Positions 1,785-14,967 of a stretch of DNA of 64,000 nt are shown piece after piece. The stretch is from Chitinivibrionales bacterium. GTDB taxonomy: Bacteria > Fibrobacterota > Chitinivibrionia > Chitinivibrionales > WJKA01. Position 1 is the stretch's first letter. Each line of letters starts with the position of its first letter. The translations under genes were made by a program, and so were the position numbers. The notes under the pieces were generated by a model. It saw nothing but the letters and a program-made list of their open reading frames with translations, was not told where the DNA came from and did not search any database. Location: the NCBI GenBank assembly GCA_014728295.1, contig WJLW01000025.1:1-64000 (forward strand). Reading direction: 5' to 3'.

Positions 1785-3845
1785 ATGGCGGCAATAAAAA
1801 AGTGTGTGCTGGAACAGCATATCGAAAAAGTTAAAACAGGCGATCGCGTCTTTGAAAACGCTTTTCAGGGCGTGGCGCGCATGATTCTTGAGAGCCCCAT
1901 CGAAAAAGTCGTGGTCAATGGAAAGACGACGTATGATTTCGGCATATTTCGCCAGGGCTCGAAACATGTCATAGGCATGTATGACGAGATAAATTCTTTT
2001 GTGTCGTATGTCAAGGATGCAGCCGAAAGCGGCTCCTCGGCCGAAATGGCATATGTGCTCGTTGGTGAACCGGGCAATGGAAAGACGTTTTTTGTTGAAT
2101 TTCTGTGCAATTGCTATCGGGAATTTCTTGTCAAAGAAAACAACAGGAAATTTACCTTTCGCTTTACCGGCATGGACAAACTGGGAACCTACGGCAAGAT
2201 TAAGACCATCGAATCGCAAACCTATGAAGATCCGATGATTCTGGCGCTCAACCTCATGGAGACCACCGATGAAACCAAAGAACAACTTGGAAGGATATTC
2301 GGGTTCAAGGATGACGAAATTGAGAAGATGTATAAAAATTACCGTCCGCTGGGCGCATGCAGCGGATACATCTGGAACGAAATCAGAGAATTTTATGATG
2401 GTAAGCTCGAAGAGATGCTCAAGTGCGTTGAGGTTATTCCTGTACCCATAACCGATAGTATGGGGACACTCACCGGCAAATACCCGGCAAAGGACAAGAT
2501 GACCTCTTCAGCCGTTGACTTACTTGGTGAGGAGTCGATCCAGCGTCTTCTGCACATCAGCGATACCAACAATCCATACCGTTTCGATCTCAGGCGCGGC
2601 GCGCTTGCCCGTGTTGGCGGCGGCGGTATTCATTTCAGCGATGAGATTTACAAGAACAAAAAGGACCTGGTTCAGGTTTATCTGGGAGTTATTCAGAACA
2701 GAACAATTGAGATTGACGGATTCAAATGGCCGATAGATACCCTGATCATCGCAACCAGCAACAATTCCGAGTTCAATCGATTTCTATCCGAAAAGGAAGA
2801 GGCGCCTATTGTCGATCGCTGTCGCATTTGCTACGTCTCGCATAATACCAACTATCGGTTGCAGAACCAGTTGACGAAATATGTTATTGGCAGTGAAGCC
2901 AGAACGACCCTGTCGCGTGAGGTGCTGCACATCGATCCCAATCTTAACTACGCCGCATCAGTGGCCGTGGTGCTCAGCCGCCTGCCGCGCTCGGAGAAGC
3001 TGACCCCAATCGAAACACTCAAGCTTGCGGCCGGGGAGGTTGCCGGTGAAAAGAGCATCAAAACCCTGGCGGAGGTGATTGACAGTTTCAATCAGGACCC
3101 GGTTATCATCAATCGCTTCGGTCAGAAGGGCCTGGGACAGCGCAATCTCGGTCGTGCGGTGCAGCTATTGATCGAAAGTTCCGAGACCAATGAGGGCAAA
3201 TGCATGTTCGCTTATGATATATTCAAATCACTCGAACGCGTTGTGCTTGATTATGTAACCGACCCCAACGACCGCAAAAAATATCTGGAGGACATTAAAA
3301 TTGCCAAGGGGCTCTACCGCGAAAGTGTTATGACGGAAATGTTCAATGCCTACATGGATGAGCCGTATGCCATACGCAAAGACGTCATGAATTATGTCAA
3401 CATGATCATCGGTGTCGACGCGGAAAATCTGGGCGCCGATAAAATGTGGAAGTATAAAGATCCACAATCGGGGGAACTGAAGGCACTAAAAATAGACGAA
3501 CGATTTGTCAACAGCGTCGAGGAGCGTATGGGCCTCAAAACAAAAGAGCAGCGCGATACTTTTCGGACCTCAATTCGCAAAATTTACGGCCAGAAAATTT
3601 CGCTCGATCCCAACTACGATTTTATGGACAACCTTGAGCTTGTCAAGGCTGTTACCGATGTGCGCCTGAAATCTGATATTGCCGGCGCGGGATCACTGGT
3701 CGGTGCGCTTGCCAACAGAACAAACGAGGAAAATCAGAAGCTATACGATCGCATGATTCATACTATGCTCAACAAGCTCAACTATTGCACAACATGTGCG
3801 CAGAAAACAATTGAATATTTCTGCACGCAGGATGACGAGAGCTGA
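1785..3845 (+). CDS. prkA: PrkA-type serine protein kinase, first paralog
   Basis: This 686-residue protein belongs to the PrkA family (YeaG in E. coli): an AAA+ ATPase module joined to a C-terminal kinase-like region. The P-loop GEPGNGKT is at residues 94-101. A long insertion follows, then a sensor region with GGGGIHFSDEI and an IATSNN strand, typical of this family. YeaG-type proteins act in stress and stationary-phase adaptation, and PrkA in Bacillus affects sporulation. GGAGG four bases before the ATG supports the start. It opens a four-gene operon with a DUF444 gene 17 bases downstream, then spoVR and a second PrkA. Family assignment is strong. Confidence 0.92.
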   Translation: MAAIKKCVLEQHIEKVKTGDRVFENAFQGVARMILESPIEKVVVNGKTTYDFGIFRQGSKHVIGMYDEINSFVSYVKDAAESGSSAEMAYVLVGEPGNGKTFFVEFLCNCYREFLVKENNRKFTFRFTGMDKLGTYGKIKTIESQTYEDPMILALNLMETTDETKEQLGRIFGFKDDEIEKMYKNYRPLGACSGYIWNEIREFYDGKLEEMLKCVEVIPVPITDSMGTLTGKYPAKDKMTSSAVDLLGEESIQRLLHISDTNNPYRFDLRRGALARVGGGGIHFSDEIYKNKKDLVQVYLGVIQNRTIEIDGFKWPIDTLIIATSNNSEFNRFLSEKEEAPIVDRCRICYVSHNTNYRLQNQLTKYVIGSEARTTLSREVLHIDPNLNYAASVAVVLSRLPRSEKLTPIETLKLAAGEVAGEKSIKTLAEVIDSFNQDPVIINRFGQKGLGQRNLGRAVQLLIESSETNEGKCMFAYDIFKSLERVVLDYVTDPNDRKKYLEDIKIAKGLYRESVMTEMFNAYMDEPYAIRKDVMNYVNMIIGVDAENLGADKMWKYKDPQSGELKALKIDERFVNSVEERMGLKTKEQRDTFRTSIRKIYGQKISLDPNYDFMDNLELVKAVTDVRLKSDIAGAGSLVGALANRTNEENQKLYDRMIHTMLNKLNYCTTCAQKTIEYFCTQDDES

Positions 3846-3862
3846 TACAAACCGATTCGGAA

Positions 3863-5254
3863 ATGTGCCCGGATAACCAACCGAAACTTATGAAACCAAA
3901 GCGGCATCAATCATCCCATCGGGCTAAGGTTCTCTCAGAGAAGCAGGGCCCGCAAAGCCACGAGGCAGGTCGCCCCCGGTTGTCGAAGGGAATTGCTCGC
4001 ATTCAGCCCCCGCCGCAGTATCTTGATTATGCCGATGCGCATACCTTGCAAGCGCAACCGGCGGCCCGGGGGACCTCGCAATTCGGTCTGACGACTATCG
4101 AGGAGCTTTTAGATCGTGATCGTCAGCGTGAACAAGATGGTTTTCCGCGCAAAATTCGTGTCGGTCGCCTGGTAAAACCAGGCAAAGGGGACAAAAATGC
4201 AATTGTTGTTATACCAGCGACGGTAGAAGAAAAATTCATTCACGACAACCAGTTCAACCCCGGCGAAGAGCAGGAAGCCGGTGGAACCGGTGACAGCGAG
4301 GAAGGTGAAGTAATCGGCGAACAGCCGGTTCGTCCCCGGCAGGGAGAGGGGGGAGAAGGCGCCGGTGAAGGTCAGGACGGCTCGCATGAGATAGAGTCCA
4401 ATGCCTACGATCTCGGCAAAATCCTCACCGAGAAGTTTGAGCTGCCCAATCTGCAAGACAAAGGAGCCAAGCGTTCGCTGACCAAATATACGTATGATAT
4501 CACCGATACAAACAGGGGCTTCGGCCAGGCTCTTGACAAAAAGGCAACCCTGCGACGGATACTCGATACCAATTTCGCGTTGGGCAGAATCAGTGATATC
4601 ACTTCGATTGATCCGGCGGATTTGCTGGTATCTCCCGGAGACCGGATGTACCGCATACTCTCGCGTGAGAAAGACTACGAATCGCAGGCAATGGTATTTT
4701 TCGTCCGTGATTATTCCGGCTCCATGGCGGGCAAGGTAACCGAGCTGGTAGTGGCGCAGCACGTTTTGATATATAGTTGGCTGCTCTACCAATACGCCAA
4801 AAGGGTCGAAACAAGGTTTATTCTGCATGATACGCAGGCAAAGGAGGTGCCTGATTTTTATTCTTACTATAATTCGAAAGTTGCCGGAGGCACGCATGTT
4901 TCTGCAGCGTATAAGCTGGTAAATGATATCGTGGAAAATGAAAATCTGCGCCGGGAATACAACATTTACGTATTTCACGGTACTGATGGAGATGACTGGG
5001 ATACGACCGGCGAAAAGGCAATTCCTGAATTGCGCACCATTCTCGAATATGCCAGCCGTGTCGGCGTAACCGTAGCCATGCATTCCTATAACCGCAATAG
5101 TAAAACCGAGGTTCAGAAATACCTCGAAAAATCGGGCTTGCTTAAGGAAATGCCGAATCTGTTGCGCATGGATGTCATAAATGAAGACGCCGAGGAGCAA
5201 AGACTGATTGATGGAATTCGCAATTTAATATCCGAAAAAGCGCCCACCACATGA
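3863..5254 (+). CDS. yeaH: DUF444/YeaH family VWA-like protein
   Basis: The 463-residue protein matches DUF444 (YeaH/YhbH). It has a basic N-terminal region, a Gly/Glu-rich low-complexity stretch at about residues 133-175, and a von Willebrand A-like domain in the second half. A complete MIDAS motif D283-Y-S285-G-S287 and a later GGTHVS segment are visible, so it should bind a divalent metal. In E. coli the orthologue is co-transcribed with the yeaG kinase and related to spoVR (ycgB) function, and the same partners flank it here. The start is uncertain: no strong ribosome site, and an in-frame ATG exists at 3890. Confidence 0.88.
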   Translation: MCPDNQPKLMKPKRHQSSHRAKVLSEKQGPQSHEAGRPRLSKGIARIQPPPQYLDYADAHTLQAQPAARGTSQFGLTTIEELLDRDRQREQDGFPRKIRVGRLVKPGKGDKNAIVVIPATVEEKFIHDNQFNPGEEQEAGGTGDSEEGEVIGEQPVRPRQGEGGEGAGEGQDGSHEIESNAYDLGKILTEKFELPNLQDKGAKRSLTKYTYDITDTNRGFGQALDKKATLRRILDTNFALGRISDITSIDPADLLVSPGDRMYRILSREKDYESQAMVFFVRDYSGSMAGKVTELVVAQHVLIYSWLLYQYAKRVETRFILHDTQAKEVPDFYSYYNSKVAGGTHVSAAYKLVNDIVENENLRREYNIYVFHGTDGDDWDTTGEKAIPELRTILEYASRVGVTVAMHSYNRNSKTEVQKYLEKSGLLKEMPNLLRMDVINEDAEEQRLIDGIRNLISEKAPTT

Positions 5255-5276
5255 CGCTGGGTAACTGACGTGACTT

Positions 5277-6923
5277 ATGGAATTAATTAGCCAGAGCGTA
5301 AAACGCATTATGGAAGGGTGCAAAGAGCGTGCACGCGATGCCGGTCTTTGTTTTGAGGATGAAACGCTTGAATATATCGTCACGAATCGAGATTTGCTGG
5401 AACTTTCGCCTAAATTGATGATTCCAACGTTGTACGATTACTGGGTGCATGATGTCGAAGTGCTGCGCGGCAAAGGCCAATACGAGCTGTACCCCAACAA
5501 CCCCTTCGAAACGGTTATCAATACTCGGCCCGCCATCTCTTTTTACAACGACAATAATCCCGATTGGCTCAATGTCATGATTTTCTATCATGTGCTTGGA
5601 CATATCGATTTTTTTCAGAACAATGCGTACTTTCGCAATACCTGGGATTATGACTTTGCCGGGCAGGCGCTTGCCGATAAGCGGTTGATTGCCAAGCTGC
5701 GGTCGGAGAAAGGACGCTGGGTTGACTATATCATTGAATTTTCACGTGGGCTTGACAATATCGTAGGATATCATAGCGAACTGGCAAAATTTGATGAGCC
5801 CGAACAACAGCAGCACTCCAGAGCGCTGAATTATTACTTTGACATATTTCTGCAGGAATATAAAAAGGTCAGCACGAGCGAATATATCAAGGAACTGGAT
5901 AGGTACAACGAAACAGTGCAGGATAATGATTCCGGCGGCGAGGAAGGATTTTTCTCGGAAATCTATGCACAGTATCCGGAATTCGAATCGCTCATGGAGA
6001 AGCATTACCGCGATCATAAAAGCAAGCATTACGATCTGCTGCAATTTATTCTGGCAAACTCTGAAATGCTGAAAAAAGAAGAAAATGCCTGGATGCGCTC
6101 GATTATCGAAATTGTGCGTAATACCTCGCTTTTTTTTCAACCTCAGATTCGTACCAAGATAATGAACGAGGGCTGGGCCAGCTACTGGCACGAAAAGCTG
6201 TTTCTGGCGGACGATCGCATCGGTGGCCACGAAGTTGACTTTGCGCGGGTACATTCGGCCGTGGCATCTTTGCCGCGCGTGGGTCTCAATCCATACGCTC
6301 TGGGCATGCGGCTTTTTCAGTATATAGAGGACTTGGGCAATAAAGGCAAATATTCGATTCCCTTTCAGCAGGTACTGGATACACAAGCCCGCCAAAAATA
6401 CGATACCGGTGCCAATGCCGGCCGCAAGCTGATTTTCGACATACGCAAGCAATGCTCCGACTTTCTGTTTGTCGATTTCTTTGTCGAGCAGGAGTTTATC
6501 GACATGCATAAGCTCTTTGTAACCGGTCGCAGGTTAAATGCAGAGCGCATGGTCTGGGAGTATTATGTCAAGAGTAAAGACGCCGGCCAATACAAACAAA
6601 TGATATTCAACAGCATGTACCACCCACCGCATATCGAGATTGACGCGGGGAAGACGAAAAATGATACGCTTTTTCTGAATCACCACTTCGAAGGAAAACC
6701 GCTGGTTACGGAATATATCGAAAATACAATGCTGGGCATTGAATATTTGTGGGGCGCACCGGTGAAGCTGGAAACAAGTGAAGTCGTTTCGGTTTCGCCC
6801 GGAGGAAAATCCGTTGGCGGACAAATTCCACCGGTTGAAAGGCCGGATGATGAACCGAAGATTACCTGGAGGCGAGTGGAATATACCATGAAAAACCGCA
6901 AATTATCCAAAAAAGAATTGTAG
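5277..6923 (+). CDS. spoVR: SpoVR family protein
   Basis: At 548 residues this is a full-length SpoVR-family protein (YcgB in E. coli). Family features include the N-terminal helix region, the PTLYDYWVHDVE segment, the HVLGHIDFF motif near residue 105, and the NEGWASYWHE segment in the middle. In Bacillus SpoVR affects spore cortex formation. In non-sporulating bacteria it is a stress protein of unknown biochemistry, linked genetically to PrkA and DUF444. It starts 22 bases after the DUF444 gene and ends 12 bases before the second PrkA. No clear ribosome site is visible, suggesting coupling. Nothing here indicates spore formation in this organism. Confidence 0.93.
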   Translation: MELISQSVKRIMEGCKERARDAGLCFEDETLEYIVTNRDLLELSPKLMIPTLYDYWVHDVEVLRGKGQYELYPNNPFETVINTRPAISFYNDNNPDWLNVMIFYHVLGHIDFFQNNAYFRNTWDYDFAGQALADKRLIAKLRSEKGRWVDYIIEFSRGLDNIVGYHSELAKFDEPEQQQHSRALNYYFDIFLQEYKKVSTSEYIKELDRYNETVQDNDSGGEEGFFSEIYAQYPEFESLMEKHYRDHKSKHYDLLQFILANSEMLKKEENAWMRSIIEIVRNTSLFFQPQIRTKIMNEGWASYWHEKLFLADDRIGGHEVDFARVHSAVASLPRVGLNPYALGMRLFQYIEDLGNKGKYSIPFQQVLDTQARQKYDTGANAGRKLIFDIRKQCSDFLFVDFFVEQEFIDMHKLFVTGRRLNAERMVWEYYVKSKDAGQYKQMIFNSMYHPPHIEIDAGKTKNDTLFLNHHFEGKPLVTEYIENTMLGIEYLWGAPVKLETSEVVSVSPGGKSVGGQIPPVERPDDEPKITWRRVEYTMKNRKLSKKEL

Positions 6924-6935
6924 AATTTATTACCC

Positions 6936-9227
6936 ATGCAGACCTCACATAAGGCATTAGCCAATCTGAACAAACGCATGACAGACCGCAGTCAGCATCC
7001 GCCGATTTCGTTCGATCAATTTTTGCAGGAGTTAAGCGAACGTCCGACGGTGGTGCTGCGCAACGTATTTCAGATCTTGAATGACCTGGTCCAGCAGTAT
7101 ATGGGTGCCGGCATAGACGAATATCCAAACGATCCCGAATCCATTCACTATGTCAAGTATGACTGCTCGAAGCTGTTTGAGGAAGGCACAGAGCGTCCGT
7201 TTTTTGCCGACAGGCTTTTTGCAAACCGTTTTGTCAACGCAATCGAGGCGATGCGACGCGGCGCACAGCAGAACAAAATTTACATATTCAATGGGCCGCC
7301 CGGATGCGGGAAAAGTACTTTTCTCAACAATCTTATGCGCAGAATAGAGCTGTACGCCAACTCACGCGAGGGAAGCCGGTACGAGATTGTCTGGCGACTG
7401 GACCCCGGACTCTTTGATGTGACTCTTGAACCCGACTCACTCCCCCTGCTAGAGAAATTAAGCCTGATGTTTGATTCTCATAAAGTCAAGGGTGAAATTC
7501 CGTCGGGAGACAAGTTGCTGGCCACGACCCCCGATGGATATGTGGAGATTGCCTGTCCCTGCCATGATCATCCGATTCTGATTATCCCCCGGGACTACCG
7601 GCGCAAATTCTTTGATGATTTATTCGGTATGACGAAATTCAAGCGCAAGCTGTTCGATGATAAGGAGTATCAATGGGTATTTCGCGAAAAGGTATGTACT
7701 TTCTGCAGCAGCCTGTACCAAACACTGCTCAATACGCTCAAAGATGCCGAAAAGGTGCATGAGTTCGTCTACGCCCGTCCATTTCACTTCAATCGACGTC
7801 TGAGCGAAGGTATCAGCGTGTACAATCCGGGAGACCGCTCACCGGAAAACAACATCGTGCGTGACCAGTCGGTTCAATGGCGCCTTAATGCAATGTTTAA
7901 AAATCAAAACGAAGTCAAGTATCTCTATTCGCATTATGCCAAAACGAATAACGGCATCTACGCGCTCATGGACATTAAGTCGCACAACGTCGGCCGGCTG
8001 ATTGAATTGCACAATATTATCAGCGAAGGCGTGCATAAAGTCGATACTGTTGAGGAAAATGTCAATTCCTTGCTCTTGGCCGTAATGAATCCAGAAGACA
8101 AGGAGAACATCAAAGATTTCAAGTCGTTTTCCGATCGTATCGAATATATCAATATCCCCTACGTGCTTGATCTGACAACAGAAGTCAAAATCTACTCGAG
8201 CATATTCGGCAGTCGCATTGAGGAGCACTTCCTTCCCCGTGTGCTTGAGAATTTTGCCCGGGTTATTTTATCAACTCGATTGAATAGAAAATCCGAAGCT
8301 TCGCTTGAGTGGATAGGTGACCCGCAGAAGTACGGTCTGTATTGTGATGAAAACCTGCTATTGCTCAAAATGGAGATTTACTCAGGCCTGATCCCCGATT
8401 GGCTGAGCGAGGAAGATAAAAAAGCGTTGACTGCTCGGGTCAGGCGAAAAATAATCTCAGAATCGGATCGCGAGGGTACGCATGGCATCTCCGGACGGGA
8501 TTCGATCAAAGTCTTCAACGAGTTCATCACGACCTATATGAAGCAAGAGAAACTGGTGAACATGTCGATGCTGTGCGACTTCTTCAACAAAACCAAAAAA
8601 GATCTTGCCAAGTATATACCTACCGGATTTATCGATTCTCTGCTGAGGATGTATGATTATACGGTATTGCAGGAAGTAAAGGAGTCACTTTATTATTACA
8701 ATGAACGCCAGATTACCAGAGATATCCTCAATTACCTCTTTGCGATAAACTTTGAGCCGCCGTCTGTAGAGGTTTGTACCTTTACCAAAGAAAAACTTGA
8801 AATTACCGAAGAATTTTTCAGTATACTCGAGCATCGATTACTGGGCTCAAAAGTGGATGAGCGGCAGCGACGCAAGTTTCGTGAAGATACCCAGCACGAA
8901 TATACTTCCAACACGCTCACGCAGGAAATCATGGTTGGCCAGAAGTCGATAAGCCAGACCGCCCTCTTCAAAGTTTTGCGTTCCAAATATGTTCAGCATA
9001 TCAAAGAGAAGTCACTGGATCCATTTCTGGAGAACGAAAATTTCCGTCGCGCTATTAAAGATTATAATACCAAAGATTTCAAAACGTACGACAAGCGCAT
9101 ACGGGATGACGTTCGCTATCTGATTCGCAACTTGCGCAAGAAATTCAACTATACCGAACAGGGCGCCAAGGAAGTCTGCATCTACGTTATCGATAACGAT
9201 CTGACAAACCGTTTTGATATAGCTTGA
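6936..9227 (+). CDS. PrkA-type serine protein kinase, second divergent paralog
   Basis: This 763-residue protein is also PrkA-like but clearly different from the first kinase of the operon. Its P-loop is GPPGCGKST at residues 120-128, and it has a longer N-terminal region starting with a SFDQFLQEL segment typical of PrkA N-termini. The middle keeps the DIKSHNVGRLIELHNIISEG block and the VMNPEDKE strand that replaces the sensor Asn region. The C-terminal part is rich in charged helices. Only 12 bases separate it from spoVR. Two PrkA paralogs in one operon suggest a heteromeric or hierarchical kinase pair; that is inference. The start could also be the ATG at 6978. Confidence 0.88.
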   Translation: MQTSHKALANLNKRMTDRSQHPPISFDQFLQELSERPTVVLRNVFQILNDLVQQYMGAGIDEYPNDPESIHYVKYDCSKLFEEGTERPFFADRLFANRFVNAIEAMRRGAQQNKIYIFNGPPGCGKSTFLNNLMRRIELYANSREGSRYEIVWRLDPGLFDVTLEPDSLPLLEKLSLMFDSHKVKGEIPSGDKLLATTPDGYVEIACPCHDHPILIIPRDYRRKFFDDLFGMTKFKRKLFDDKEYQWVFREKVCTFCSSLYQTLLNTLKDAEKVHEFVYARPFHFNRRLSEGISVYNPGDRSPENNIVRDQSVQWRLNAMFKNQNEVKYLYSHYAKTNNGIYALMDIKSHNVGRLIELHNIISEGVHKVDTVEENVNSLLLAVMNPEDKENIKDFKSFSDRIEYINIPYVLDLTTEVKIYSSIFGSRIEEHFLPRVLENFARVILSTRLNRKSEASLEWIGDPQKYGLYCDENLLLLKMEIYSGLIPDWLSEEDKKALTARVRRKIISESDREGTHGISGRDSIKVFNEFITTYMKQEKLVNMSMLCDFFNKTKKDLAKYIPTGFIDSLLRMYDYTVLQEVKESLYYYNERQITRDILNYLFAINFEPPSVEVCTFTKEKLEITEEFFSILEHRLLGSKVDERQRRKFREDTQHEYTSNTLTQEIMVGQKSISQTALFKVLRSKYVQHIKEKSLDPFLENENFRRAIKDYNTKDFKTYDKRIRDDVRYLIRNLRKKFNYTEQGAKEVCIYVIDNDLTNRFDIA

Positions 9228-9517: not shown

Positions 9518-9706
9518 ATGCAGGTCGCCATGAATCTGAACGAAGAATACGATGCGGATGAGATCCTGCGTGGAAATGAGGAAAATTATTTCGAAGGGGA
9601 GATTGATGAAGAGTCGGTCGAGGAACTCGATTTTGAAAGCGGCACGACCGATACCTACAACGATTTGGTTAGCGATATTGACGACGATACCGATTTGTGG
9701 GAATAA
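9518..9706 (+). CDS. Small acidic protein of unknown function
   Basis: A 62-residue protein, very rich in Asp and Glu and without Cys. The open frame extends upstream to 9440, but the purine-rich ribosome-binding stretch GGAAAGGA (9510-9517) favours the ATG at 9518 or, with better spacing, the one at 9530. A sigma-70-like promoter lies about 155 bases upstream, so it can be expressed separately from the PrkA operon. The charge resembles small anti-sigma or delta-subunit-like acidic proteins, but no family is recognised. Codon choice resembles neighbouring genes. I call it real with moderate confidence. Confidence 0.5.
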   Translation: MQVAMNLNEEYDADEILRGNEENYFEGEIDEESVEELDFESGTTDTYNDLVSDIDDDTDLWE

Positions 9707-11655: not shown

Positions 11656-11901
11656 ATACCCATCCTTCCGGTTAAGGTGAGTGTCGGTAACCCGATCCCC
11701 CTCTGGATATAAACGCTGTTGCCTCTCTGCTCTGCTTTCTACAAAGATAGTTGAGGAAGTCGTAATTGCGCAAGCCACAAATTTATATGGATGGGGATTT
11801 ACTTGACGCGGGAGGGACTTTTTTTCCGCAGGCGAACCAATTTTCCGCATACGGATCACGGCATATCCAGGTAACTTATTGAAAATAAAGAGGTTGATTG
11901 T

Positions 11902-11917
11902 TGGCATTGGCATTGCT
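11902..11917 (+). promoter_or_regulatory. Sigma-54 promoter of the flgJ-flgN-flgK-flgL operon
   Basis: TGGCAT, five bases, TTGCT: matches the sigma-54 -24/-12 consensus (TGGCAC-N5-TTGCW) except the sixth base. Predicted transcription start near 11928, 32 bases before the chosen flgJ start. This excludes upstream in-frame starts such as 11879. Two further sites of the same pattern lie before fliC and the MerR-like gene. Confidence 0.8.
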
Positions 11918-11959
11918 TTACCTATTCGGCAAATGGATTTCCGAAAGGATTCGGGTTAT

Positions 11960-12775
11960 ATGCACTTAACACCCATATCATCACTGCTCCCGCGGTATAC
12001 GCATGCCCCCACCACCGATCCTCGCGCCGTTGCTCAGGAGTTTGAATCCCTTTTTATATCTATGGTGATGCGTTCTATGCGCAAGACTGTTCCCAACAGC
12101 TCGCTGGTCCCACGCAGTCTCGGCGAAAAAATTTACACCGATATGCTTGACACGGAATATTCGGGTATGATTTCACGGCACGAGTCATTGGGATTGGCAG
12201 ATCTGATTCAAAATGAACTCGAGCAGCACCGTTCAACACCGGAAAATCTGAATTCATTGCAGCAATTGAAAAATCCGGCCTGGATGATCGATAATCGAAT
12301 GGTATCGCGTCATGCAGGAGTGCGATTCAGCCGGAGCCTGCGCAGCAGAATTGCAGCATGGAACAACCATATTAAATCAGCCGCACAAAAGTTTGATATT
12401 GATCCTCACCTGATCAGGGCGGTGATCGCTCAGGAATCTGCAGGCAATCCCCATGCCGTCTCCCACGCAGGAGCAAAGGGCCTGATGCAGCTTATCGACA
12501 GCACGGCAGCCGAGATGAGGGTCAATAACGTTTTCGATCCGCATCAGAATATCCAGGGAGGATCCCGCTATCTGCAACGAATGTTGCGCAAATATAAAGG
12601 AGATGTCCGTCTGGCGCTGGCCGCATACAACGCCGGTCCGGCGGCCGTAGACCGGTACAAGGGAATTCCGCCCTACCGTGAAACTCAAAATTACGTCGAA
12701 AGCGTTTTGCGCTTGCGGCAGGACTTTGCATCGGTGACGGAAAGCCGGGTGCAACAGGAGGTAGCCCATGAATAA
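11960..12775 (+). CDS. flgJ: FlgJ-like rod-binding protein fused to SLT lytic transglycosylase
   Basis: This 271-residue protein joins two modules. Residues 20-90 match the FlgJ N-terminal rod-binding domain (AQEFESLFISMVMRSMRK). Residues about 135-255 form an SLT-family lytic transglycosylase with catalytic Glu159 in IAQES, then GLMQL and AAYNAGP. Proteobacterial FlgJ carries a different glucosaminidase-type (GH73) domain, so this is a functional substitution. It should open the peptidoglycan for the flagellar rod. The start at 11960 is supported by AAAGGA ten bases upstream and by the sigma-54 promoter position. No signal peptide is visible, as expected for export by the flagellar apparatus. 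It overlaps flgN by eight bases. Confidence 0.85.
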   Translation: MHLTPISSLLPRYTHAPTTDPRAVAQEFESLFISMVMRSMRKTVPNSSLVPRSLGEKIYTDMLDTEYSGMISRHESLGLADLIQNELEQHRSTPENLNSLQQLKNPAWMIDNRMVSRHAGVRFSRSLRSRIAAWNNHIKSAAQKFDIDPHLIRAVIAQESAGNPHAVSHAGAKGLMQLIDSTAAEMRVNNVFDPHQNIQGGSRYLQRMLRKYKGDVRLALAAYNAGPAAVDRYKGIPPYRETQNYVESVLRLRQDFASVTESRVQQEVAHE

Positions 12776-13256
12776 TGACCTGGAAACGTTAAAAGACATT
12801 CTGCTCCATGAAGATGAGCTGCATGCACAACTTGTACAACTTGCCGGGCAAATGCAGCAGGCGCTTAAAGAGCGCCGGGCCGAACGTATTCAAAGCATTA
12901 CTCAGTCCTACGATGAAGTGACCCTGCACATTGAACGCCTTGAAGAGGCGCGTCTTGCTCTGTGCGATAAGCTCAACGTCCGGTCGGGGCACACAAACCT
13001 GACGGCGATAATCAAAGTGCTGCCGGAAAAGCAGCAGCAGGAATTTCAGGCGATTCGGAGCCGTCTCAAAGAAAAAATCAGCAGGTTGGTAAAGTTGAAT
13101 ACGGCGAATAACATCATGCTCCAGGAATCCCTTGCCGCAATGAATCAAACGATGGCCGACCTTGCGGCTTCAAATGTGCACAGTCCCGGCTATCAGCACA
13201 GTGGCCGAAAAAGCGCGGAGCCGCAGAGCGTTTCGATGTTTAATCATGTAGCTTGA
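12768..13256 (+). CDS. flgN: FlgN-type flagellar export chaperone
   Basis: The 162-residue protein is almost wholly helical, with a long coiled coil in the first 120 residues and a disordered tail, matching FlgN. FlgN binds the hook-filament junction proteins FlgK and FlgL in the cytoplasm and delivers them to the export gate; both genes follow directly. GGAGG six bases before the ATG is a strong ribosome site, and the start overlaps the end of flgJ. Sequence conservation in FlgN is low, so the call rests on length, helical pattern and position. No flgM anti-sigma gene accompanies it, in keeping with sigma-54 rather than sigma-28 promoters here. Confidence 0.75.
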   Translation: MNNDLETLKDILLHEDELHAQLVQLAGQMQQALKERRAERIQSITQSYDEVTLHIERLEEARLALCDKLNVRSGHTNLTAIIKVLPEKQQQEFQAIRSRLKEKISRLVKLNTANNIMLQESLAAMNQTMADLAASNVHSPGYQHSGRKSAEPQSVSMFNHVA

Positions 13257-13269
13257 CAGCGAGGAACCT

Positions 13270-14967
13270 ATGGGACTCTTCTCCACTCTCAGCATCGGTA
13301 CACGTGGCATCTTTGCTTCTCAGCTCGGTATGGATGTTGCCGGGCAGAATATATCCAACGCGGATGTTGAAGGATATTCACGCAAAAGAATCAGCACAAC
13401 CGCCGATTATCGCTACGACGGCAGCTACGGGCAAATGGGATTTGGTGTTGATGTTGTCAACGTGGTTCGCAAGCGGGATGCACTTATCGACCAGCAGATT
13501 CAGCGGCAGAACCATTTTGTCGGCTACTTCGAGGAAGTTGATTTTTCGCTGGAGCAAATTGAAAATATCTTCACCGAACCCAGCGATACCGGCGTTTTGC
13601 ACTTCATCGATAAATTCTTTGACGGTTGGCAGAACCTGGCAAATAATCCGGCCGACCTTTCGGCTCGCACGATGGTTAAGACCAATGCCGAAATTCTCAA
13701 CGGTGTATTTCATAATCTCAGCTCTGAGCTGCGCAATTTGCGGCAGGCCGCAAATGACAAAATCACCGCGAATATGAATCGGGTCAATGAACTTGCCAAA
13801 GAAATTTACAATATCAATATCGAAGTCGGGGCAGTGGAAATCGGCAATCAGAATGCAAATGACAGTCGGGACAAACGCGACCGGCTACTCAAAGAGCTGG
13901 CGTCACACATCGATTATGACACAATTGAAAACGAACAGGGGCAGATAACCTTGACCACCAATGGGCAGGTTCTGCTTTCACCCGTCGGCTACCGTTCTCT
14001 CGAGACGGCGACAACCACCTTCAGCAGAGCCGACGGAACTTCGTATACTAATATCGGCCTTCAATTCGCCGATTCCAATGTTGCCTATCAGCCCGGCAAT
14101 GGAACCCTCAGGGCACTCTTTACCGTGCGCGATCTGGTAATTCCCGAACAGGAAAACAATCTTGACACGCTGGCAAACAGTCTGGTTCAGGAAGTAAACA
14201 GCCTGCATACCAACGGCTATAATTTATATGGATATACCGGGCTAGAATTTTTCAATTCGAATACGACCGGTGCATCGGATATTGCTCTGAGTTCTTCAAT
14301 ACTCGAGTCGGTGCAGAATATCGCCGCGGCAACGGGCGGGCAGATGCTGAATGCGGCCGCCGTTAATGTCCCGGCCGGGGTTATGAACTTTGGCAATTTG
14401 CCGACTCAGATGTCCAAAACGCTGGGCAGGCAATGGATTGCCGGGGATCCGCAAGCGGAACGGGCACGCAATATTGTGCATGGCACCGTTATTGTGCAGG
14501 CGGGAGGCGCAACCCTGGCAGAGGGCAGCGACTACTTTGTCAATTACGTCACCGGCGAAATACAGATGCTGCACGGCGGCTATGACGGCCAGCCGGTCAC
14601 GGTTGATTTTCAGTATCGCACCGGCGCGTTCAAGGGACCCGGTGATAATGAAAACGCAGTGGATATAGCCAAACTCCGGGAACAATTAACCATGCAGCCC
14701 GGGCCAACCGGCAATTCCACCAATACCTTTGCGCAATATTACAGCTCGTTTATCGGCCGTCTCGGACTTGCCCGCAATGAAGCGGAATCGAATCTGGAAA
14801 CACGTGAATTTCTCATCAAGCAATTTGAGGAGCATCAGGACTCGATTGCCGGCGTTTCTCTGGATGAAGAGATGGCGGAGATAATCAAATATCAACATAC
14901 CTTTACCGCTGCAGCGCGCCTGATAACCACGACCAGCCAGATGCTTGAAGTACTGATGAATATGTAA
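13270..14967 (+). CDS. flgK: Flagellar hook-associated protein 1 FlgK
   Basis: This is a full-length 565-residue FlgK, the first hook-filament junction protein. The N-terminus has the rod/hook signature (GQNISNADVEGYSRKR). The C-terminal helix (SLDEEMAEIIKYQHTFTAAARL) is the family's D0 partner. The variable middle carries the surface domains. It is secreted through the flagellar export system with FlgN as chaperone. GAGGAA upstream of the ATG is a good ribosome site. It lies 13 bases after flgN and 22 bases before flgL, in the sigma-54 operon that begins with flgJ. Confidence 0.96.
   Translation: MGLFSTLSIGTRGIFASQLGMDVAGQNISNADVEGYSRKRISTTADYRYDGSYGQMGFGVDVVNVVRKRDALIDQQIQRQNHFVGYFEEVDFSLEQIENIFTEPSDTGVLHFIDKFFDGWQNLANNPADLSARTMVKTNAEILNGVFHNLSSELRNLRQAANDKITANMNRVNELAKEIYNINIEVGAVEIGNQNANDSRDKRDRLLKELASHIDYDTIENEQGQITLTTNGQVLLSPVGYRSLETATTTFSRADGTSYTNIGLQFADSNVAYQPGNGTLRALFTVRDLVIPEQENNLDTLANSLVQEVNSLHTNGYNLYGYTGLEFFNSNTTGASDIALSSSILESVQNIAAATGGQMLNAAAVNVPAGVMNFGNLPTQMSKTLGRQWIAGDPQAERARNIVHGTVIVQAGGATLAEGSDYFVNYVTGEIQMLHGGYDGQPVTVDFQYRTGAFKGPGDNENAVDIAKLREQLTMQPGPTGNSTNTFAQYYSSFIGRLGLARNEAESNLETREFLIKQFEEHQDSIAGVSLDEEMAEIIKYQHTFTAAARLITTTSQMLEVLMNM

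Follow-up and report, generated by a model that had tools for sequence, protein, structure and literature searches.

Two divergent PrkA-family AAA+ paralogs in a conserved bacterial operon with DUF444 and SpoVR

A 64,000-nucleotide stretch of DNA from a Chitinivibrionales bacterium (assembly GCA_014728295.1, contig WJLW01000025.1, positions 1 to 64,000; hereafter the window) carries an operon in which two different PrkA-family genes, prkA1 and prkA2, flank genes for a DUF444 protein and a SpoVR protein. We found that this two-PrkA set is, by gene content and order, a near-obligate four-gene unit. It is not a new class: a pair of neighbouring PrkA-like genes, invariably accompanied by genes for DUF444 and SpoVR, was described in haloarchaea as a signature of all ten examined (Anderson et al., 2011, PMC3102087). 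The bacterial form is real and widely conserved, and we tentatively read it, with somewhat less than even confidence, as a second, ancient type of PrkA-DUF444-SpoVR module in which two specialised AAA+ paralogs replace the single PrkA and the products would act as a remodelling machine built from AAA+ and von Willebrand factor A (VWA) proteins.

Gene content and spread of the two-PrkA operon

The four genes lie head to tail on the plus strand, as do all features given below. prkA1 (1785..3845) encodes a strongly conserved PrkA-family AAA+ paralog of 686 amino acids and is followed by a DUF444/YeaH/YhbH-type VWA gene (3863..5254; 463 amino acids), a spoVR-family gene (5277..6923; 548 amino acids) and prkA2 (6936..9227), which encodes a second, longer PrkA-family AAA+ protein of 763 amino acids. 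The successive spacers are 17, 22 and 12 bases; coordinates and Pfam agree here with an earlier reading of the locus made from the sequence alone, which had listed the same four genes and gaps. Each open reading frame (ORF) has Pfam matches that exceed curated cut-offs: the PrkA C-terminal domain (7e-36) and AAA_PrkA (1.6e-12) in the first protein, DUF444 (1.2e-34) in the second, which also matches NCBIfam NF003712 at 705 bits, SpoVR (5.7e-58) in the third, and the PrkA C-terminal domain (2.3e-50) and AAA_PrkA (1e-13) in the fourth. PrkA1 and PrkA2 are therefore both members of the PrkA family, with AAA_PrkA (PF08298) followed by the PrkA C-terminal domain (PF06798; 3012..3818 in prkA1 and 8367..9185 in prkA2). 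Judged by the NCBIfam equivalog PRK15455, against which they score 30 and 27 bits versus a cut-off of 576, neither is a canonical PrkA ortholog. No further PrkA gene was found in this genome.

We scanned one genome per bacterial and archaeal species with a 12-member PrkA2 alignment and took the best 80 loci. By their record titles, these come from Fibrobacter/Chitinispirillales, KSB1, Gemmatimonadetes, Aminicenantes and many Desulfobacterota (including Geobacter, Desulfosarcina and Desulfonema), and close relatives are Chitinispirillales and other Fibrobacterota. Gene order was judged on the 54 loci that have 6 kb or more of sequence upstream, and the order PrkA1-DUF444-SpoVR-PrkA2 on one strand was present in 51 of these, across several phyla, with median gaps of 34, 40 and 19 bases. 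Because the same order is kept in dozens of genomes, a chance arrangement is excluded. The sequence-only reading had taken the second PrkA for a divergent paralog of the same unit and had named its occurrence mostly apart from the others as the finding that would speak against this; the opposite was found, the pair of PrkA genes being near-invariable. The three exceptions to the order are a solitary PrkA2 whose genome assembly contains neither PrkA1 nor SpoVR of the two-PrkA type (L023, CP070652.1), a split operon in Desulfonema magnum with PrkA1 about 25 kb upstream of PrkA2 and DUF444 and SpoVR in between (L045/L151), and a locus at which PrkA1 was not seen (L068). Where loci were cut by contig ends, at least one partner was still visible in 23 of 26. 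No fifth conserved gene was found, the flanking ORF clusters of the 80 loci consisting of antisense or overlapping core ORFs and scattered neighbours. One locus (L039) shows a tandem operon duplication, in which a partial DUF444-SpoVR-PrkA2 set precedes a full four-gene set, giving its genome (G180) four PrkA matches altogether as two PrkA1/PrkA2 pairs, and at another (L079) an additional, broken PrkA2 lies upstream.

Counts per genome, based on matches to the PrkA C-terminal domain, likewise show the paralogs in pairs. All 46 of the 117 Desulfuromonadia genomes that have PrkA carry exactly two copies. Among 147 Desulfobacteria genomes, 79 have PrkA above cut-off, with exactly two genes in 76, three in two and one in a single genome; SpoVR of the two-PrkA type is present in 77 of the 147, and every one of the 77 has PrkA. 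Fibrobacterota have PrkA in 18 of 168 genomes: ten with two genes, one with pieces of a pair over several contigs, four, with incomplete assemblies or short contigs, in which one pair member is seen, and three that have just one PrkA, of the familiar type. The paired type is patchy, two genomes of the window’s own family being without it, and single-type PrkA is found in about 28 genomes versus 3 with the paired type in the phylum of the Aminicenantes genome, and in 28 versus 2 in the KSB1 phylum. Across the sampled groups, paired and single types were never seen within one genome. Plasmids, considered as a source of the two-PrkA type, yielded only single-type PrkA; one plasmid-labelled record, Bacillus licheniformis pBL027-1 (L114), has a prkA gene close to recombinase genes.

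Ancestry and AAA+ active sites of the paralogs

A maximum-likelihood tree was built from 54 proteins of four types: PrkA1, PrkA2, single-type PrkA and a further type that stands alone. Each of the four formed one clade with 99-100% support. By this sequence comparison PrkA1 and PrkA2 represent two distinct ancient clades, each supported at 100/100 and each on a stem of more than four changes per column; the branching order among the types is not settled by the tree (87/70). Identity is 0.82 within PrkA1, 0.64 within PrkA2 and 0.17 between them. Profile comparison makes both full-length homologs of single-type PrkA (E-values of 1e-29 for PrkA1 and 2e-24 for PrkA2), while the two match each other only locally (4e-7). 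PrkA1 is 76-90% identical across 29 members from several phyla, versus roughly 60-65% between phyla for the other three operon proteins, and over the same 27 loci its mean distance is 0.21 versus 0.45-0.48 in the three partners. DUF444 and SpoVR of the two-PrkA type are likewise remote from their single-type counterparts in the same phylum, and the set of four genes has thus diverged jointly from the single-PrkA module. The single-PrkA module itself was found, as PrkA-YhbH-SpoVR, in the same phylum and in T. roseum. The fourth clade is made up of stand-alone PrkA-like proteins from the Aminicenantes phylum sample (L174 and L177, 884-991 amino acids; L176, L179 and L181, 724-751 amino acids), which have a Walker B of the form hVEFSD and no DUF444 or SpoVR detected nearby.

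Both paralogs keep the Walker A lysine, the sensor-1 asparagine and the arginine that follows the aspartate of a ‘DR’ motif. The P-loop GPPGCGKST that the earlier reading had pointed out as intact in PrkA2 is present (7293..7319; Lys and Ser in 31/31), and PrkA1 also has one (GEPGNGKT, 2064..2087; Lys and Thr in 29/29, as are its sensor-1 asparagine and arginine). The PrkA1 Walker B, GIHFSDEI (2625..2648), has the classical DE and is nearly universal; D286 and E287 are invariant in a 21-member alignment, and the glutamate falls on the canonical glutamate in the profile alignment. With Walker A, the Walker B glutamate, sensor-1 and an arginine finger all in place, PrkA1 is predicted to be a hydrolysis-competent AAA+ ATPase. 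In single-type PrkA the Walker B reads hhEF[VIQ]E. PrkA2 has instead a degenerate strand, IYALMDI (7956..7976; a beta strand in the predicted structure), which reads IY[AS]LMD[IV] across the family and lacks the catalytic glutamate in 31/31. Its P-loop, its arginine and its sensor-1 asparagine (Asn385, 8088..8090; 31/31) are there, and the missing glutamate sets it apart from the sequence pattern of a hydrolysis-competent AAA+ protein; PrkA2 probably binds ATP yet hardly hydrolyses it.

PrkA2 further carries a zinc-knuckle-like CxxH...CxxC (C207, H210, C254 and C257; 7554..7706) in 31/31 members. These possible zinc ligands are complete in all PrkA2 and most single-type PrkAs, and every PrkA1 lacks three of the four. 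In the PrkA2 model (predicted local distance difference test score, pLDDT, 81; predicted template modelling score 0.73) the sensor-1 strand is immediately preceded by two short strands (366-369 and 372-375), an arrangement shared with the MoxR/Mg-chelatase/MCM group. The PDB entries that match the model best are AAA+ domains of MCM, NorQ, Lon-like and PspF proteins, with BchI also listed, and none reaches an E-value of 0.001, so this likeness is only suggestive.

Known systems and a putative remodelling machine

The single-PrkA module (yeaG-yeaH and ycgB in E. coli, and those of R. etli and T. roseum) brings together the same three families in the order PrkA-DUF444-SpoVR, but with one PrkA, and its PrkA and SpoVR are only about 20-26% identical to those of the two-PrkA type. 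A link between yeaG, yeaH and ycgB had been pointed out in 2007 (PMC2375023), and prkA-VWA-spoVR of R. etli was confirmed as a three-gene operon by reverse-transcription PCR (PMC3188799). The haloarchaeal cluster, compared here by its published description and not by sequence, shares two PrkA genes, DUF444 and SpoVR with the window’s operon; it is archaeal and its prkA genes are adjacent, whereas here they flank DUF444 and SpoVR. The sequence-only reading had missed this precedent. We found no earlier report of a bacterial two-PrkA operon in the open literature (subscription journals were outside the search), and the haloarchaeal arrangement is now paralleled in several bacterial phyla.

AAA+ proteins encoded together with a VWA protein bearing a metal ion-dependent adhesion site (MIDAS) are usually remodelling machines where they have been studied. 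In MoxR-type machines (NorQ-NorD, CbbQ-CbbO and RavA-ViaA) and in the Mg-chelatase BchI/BchD, in which one AAA+ partner is inactive, an AAA+ motor is encoded with a MIDAS-bearing VWA protein, as it is here. PrkA differs in belonging to another AAA+ family with its own C-terminal domain, and in that the VWA protein and the weaker AAA+ protein are separate products of a four-gene operon. No operon protein had a MoxR-family match in Pfam or NCBIfam; by analogy the four-gene unit may work like a MoxR AAA+/VWA system, but it is not a member of the MoxR family. A recent structural example of such a system is NorQ-NorD, whose VWA protein extends into the ring of the AAA+ protein and powers the insertion of metal (PMC13036017).

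The DUF444 protein has the residues expected of such a partner. Its DxSxS motif (DYSGS, 4709..4723; D283, S285 and S287) and the further MIDAS residues T344 (4892-4894) and D375 (4985-4987) are invariant in 35 sequences from both system types, and with DxSxS, Thr and Asp all present it is predicted to be a VWA/MIDAS protein. SpoVR likewise has H105 and H109 of an HxxxH motif (5589..5603), E298 (6168-6170) and H305 (6189-6191) invariant in 33 sequences from both system types; together these four are a candidate metal site, which we regard as possible.

From gene content, conservation and motifs we infer a division of labour in ATPase behaviour, contacts and the role of SpoVR. The four-gene unit would work as an AAA+/VWA remodelling machine comparable to NorQ-NorD, CbbQ-CbbO and BchI-BchD, in which PrkA1 would be the ATP-hydrolysing motor and PrkA2 an ATP-bound, poorly hydrolysing regulatory or structural AAA+ partner. 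DUF444, as a metal-dependent VWA adaptor, would connect the motor with SpoVR, which carries the conserved HxxxH...E...H cluster and would itself be effector or client during starvation or stress; the scheme requires no kinase step. It is possible, though doubtful, that active PrkA1 and ATP-binding, hydrolysis-dead PrkA2 sit in one mixed assembly that the VWA adaptor links to SpoVR as an enzyme or metal protein. It would be a heteromeric machine in a family that has so far been investigated only through single PrkA proteins. If true, the ‘PrkA kinase’ would become a motor for remodelling, and SpoVR would gain a biochemical role for the first time. PrkA, YeaH/DUF444 and SpoVR occur widely as proteins of stress and sporulation, and for decades research on them has followed the ‘kinase’ label; a naturally split version, with a classical Walker B in one paralog and the glutamate lost in the other, would separate motor from regulatory roles and offers clean mutants and a defined four-protein set for purification. 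The broad distribution of the operon among bacteria, together with the difference in active site between its two ring proteins, gives a concrete lead on mechanism.

Counter-evidence and rival readings

Several observations weigh against the remodelling-machine proposal. In one genome (G168) PrkA2 has been kept on its own and SpoVR of the two-PrkA type is missing, and the SpoVR model (pLDDT 75) matches no known fold. It is uncertain in which register the PrkA2 Walker B should be read, since the profile alignment places Asp346 at the canonical glutamate position (E to D) and a classical hhhhDE reading would give DI (DE to DI); both are without the glutamate, but an E to D change can leave some activity. 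A contact between PrkA1 and PrkA2 is itself conjectural, and in a weak mirror-tree (distance correlation) test, limited to 27 loci with pairs that are not independent, PrkA1 and PrkA2 tree distances were uncorrelated once DUF444 and SpoVR were controlled for (partial r -0.06), compared with 0.43 for PrkA1-SpoVR and 0.52 for PrkA2-DUF444. A mixed ring is therefore possible but not favoured by these data, which weakly favour separate assemblies that share adaptor and client. PrkA1 and PrkA2 might then form two homomeric rings that act at different steps or faces of one DUF444/SpoVR complex, an arrangement that we also regard as conceivable but not probable. Beyond the correlation of each paralog with SpoVR or DUF444 and not with the other, the 17% identity between the clades and their very unequal rates of change (mean distance 0.21 versus 0.48) agree with it; the missing catalytic glutamate makes a purely homomeric PrkA2 motor unlikely, and AAA+ heteromers in which one subunit is inactive are commonplace, BchI/BchD, MCM and ORC being textbook cases. 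That PrkA2 is instead a drifting, partly redundant duplicate, kept or lost at random, might be suspected from its degenerate Walker B and its faster change relative to PrkA1, but its presence in nearly every PrkA1 genome of three sampled groups, its constant operon position, and its large invariant blocks and four invariant zinc-type ligands across phyla make this most improbable.

In a further reading, ATP-dependent proteolysis, PrkA1 and PrkA2 would unfold substrates for SpoVR as the peptidase, a role for which the invariant H105, H109, E298 and H305 and a weak protease activity of B. subtilis PrkA, as cited in PMC13001217, could be adduced. The HxxxH and a NEGWAxxWH motif looked promising for a zincin metallopeptidase, but we rejected this candidate: the HxxxH reads HVLGH, without the glutamate of HExxH, and the SpoVR model matched nothing significant, zincin-like structures included. 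Protease activity of B. anthracis PrkA was moreover traced to a likely contaminant (PMC13001217), and we consider a proteolytic machine unlikely. The sequence-only reading had suggested a two-kinase machine, perhaps with one PrkA serine kinase phosphorylating or remodelling the other, in line with the family annotation and with older in vitro phosphorylation reports on B. subtilis PrkA and E. coli YeaG as these are cited in PMC13001217 and PMC4664914. In a 2026 study, however, pure B. anthracis PrkA had neither detectable kinase nor protease activity and was described as an AAA+ protein (PMC13001217). E. coli yeaG is functionally linked to yeaH, and YeaG requires both its P-loop lysine K116 and K426 in vivo, the latter proposed as the catalytic kinase lysine (PMC4664914), but at the K426 position 14 of 15 single-type PrkAs have Asn or Asp, and PrkA1 has Gln there in 29/29. 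In the PrkA2 model the C-terminal half (pLDDT about 88) is helical, with two short strands only and without a kinase-like N-lobe, and the 50 PDB entries that match the model best include no protein kinase. Neither the conserved catalytic lysine nor the bilobal fold in the C-terminal region that mark Hanks-type Ser/Thr kinases was thus apparent from sequence and model. We rejected the kinase reading as leading model on these grounds and hold it to be very unlikely: PrkA2 belongs to the unit, as had been proposed, but the ‘kinase’ label is poorly supported. PrkA is better described as an AAA+ protein plus a mostly helical domain, and ‘PrkA family (AAA+)’ is the better name for both proteins. The PDB entries 9xip, 9xiq and 9xir, titled ‘Serine protein kinase’, are matched by PrkA1 (1.8e-12) and PrkA2 (4.8e-23), but seem to be a single-type PrkA and align far better with YeaG (7.5e-51).

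Downstream of the operon, a short, highly acidic ORF of about 58 amino acids (9529-9705) comes right after prkA2, with no counterpart noticed beside the operon elsewhere. Apparent flagellar genes at 11879-14967 are not part of the operon’s conserved neighbourhood; by inspection only, they resemble a lytic transglycosylase/rod-type gene, FlgN and FlgK, and start about 2.6 kb past the operon.

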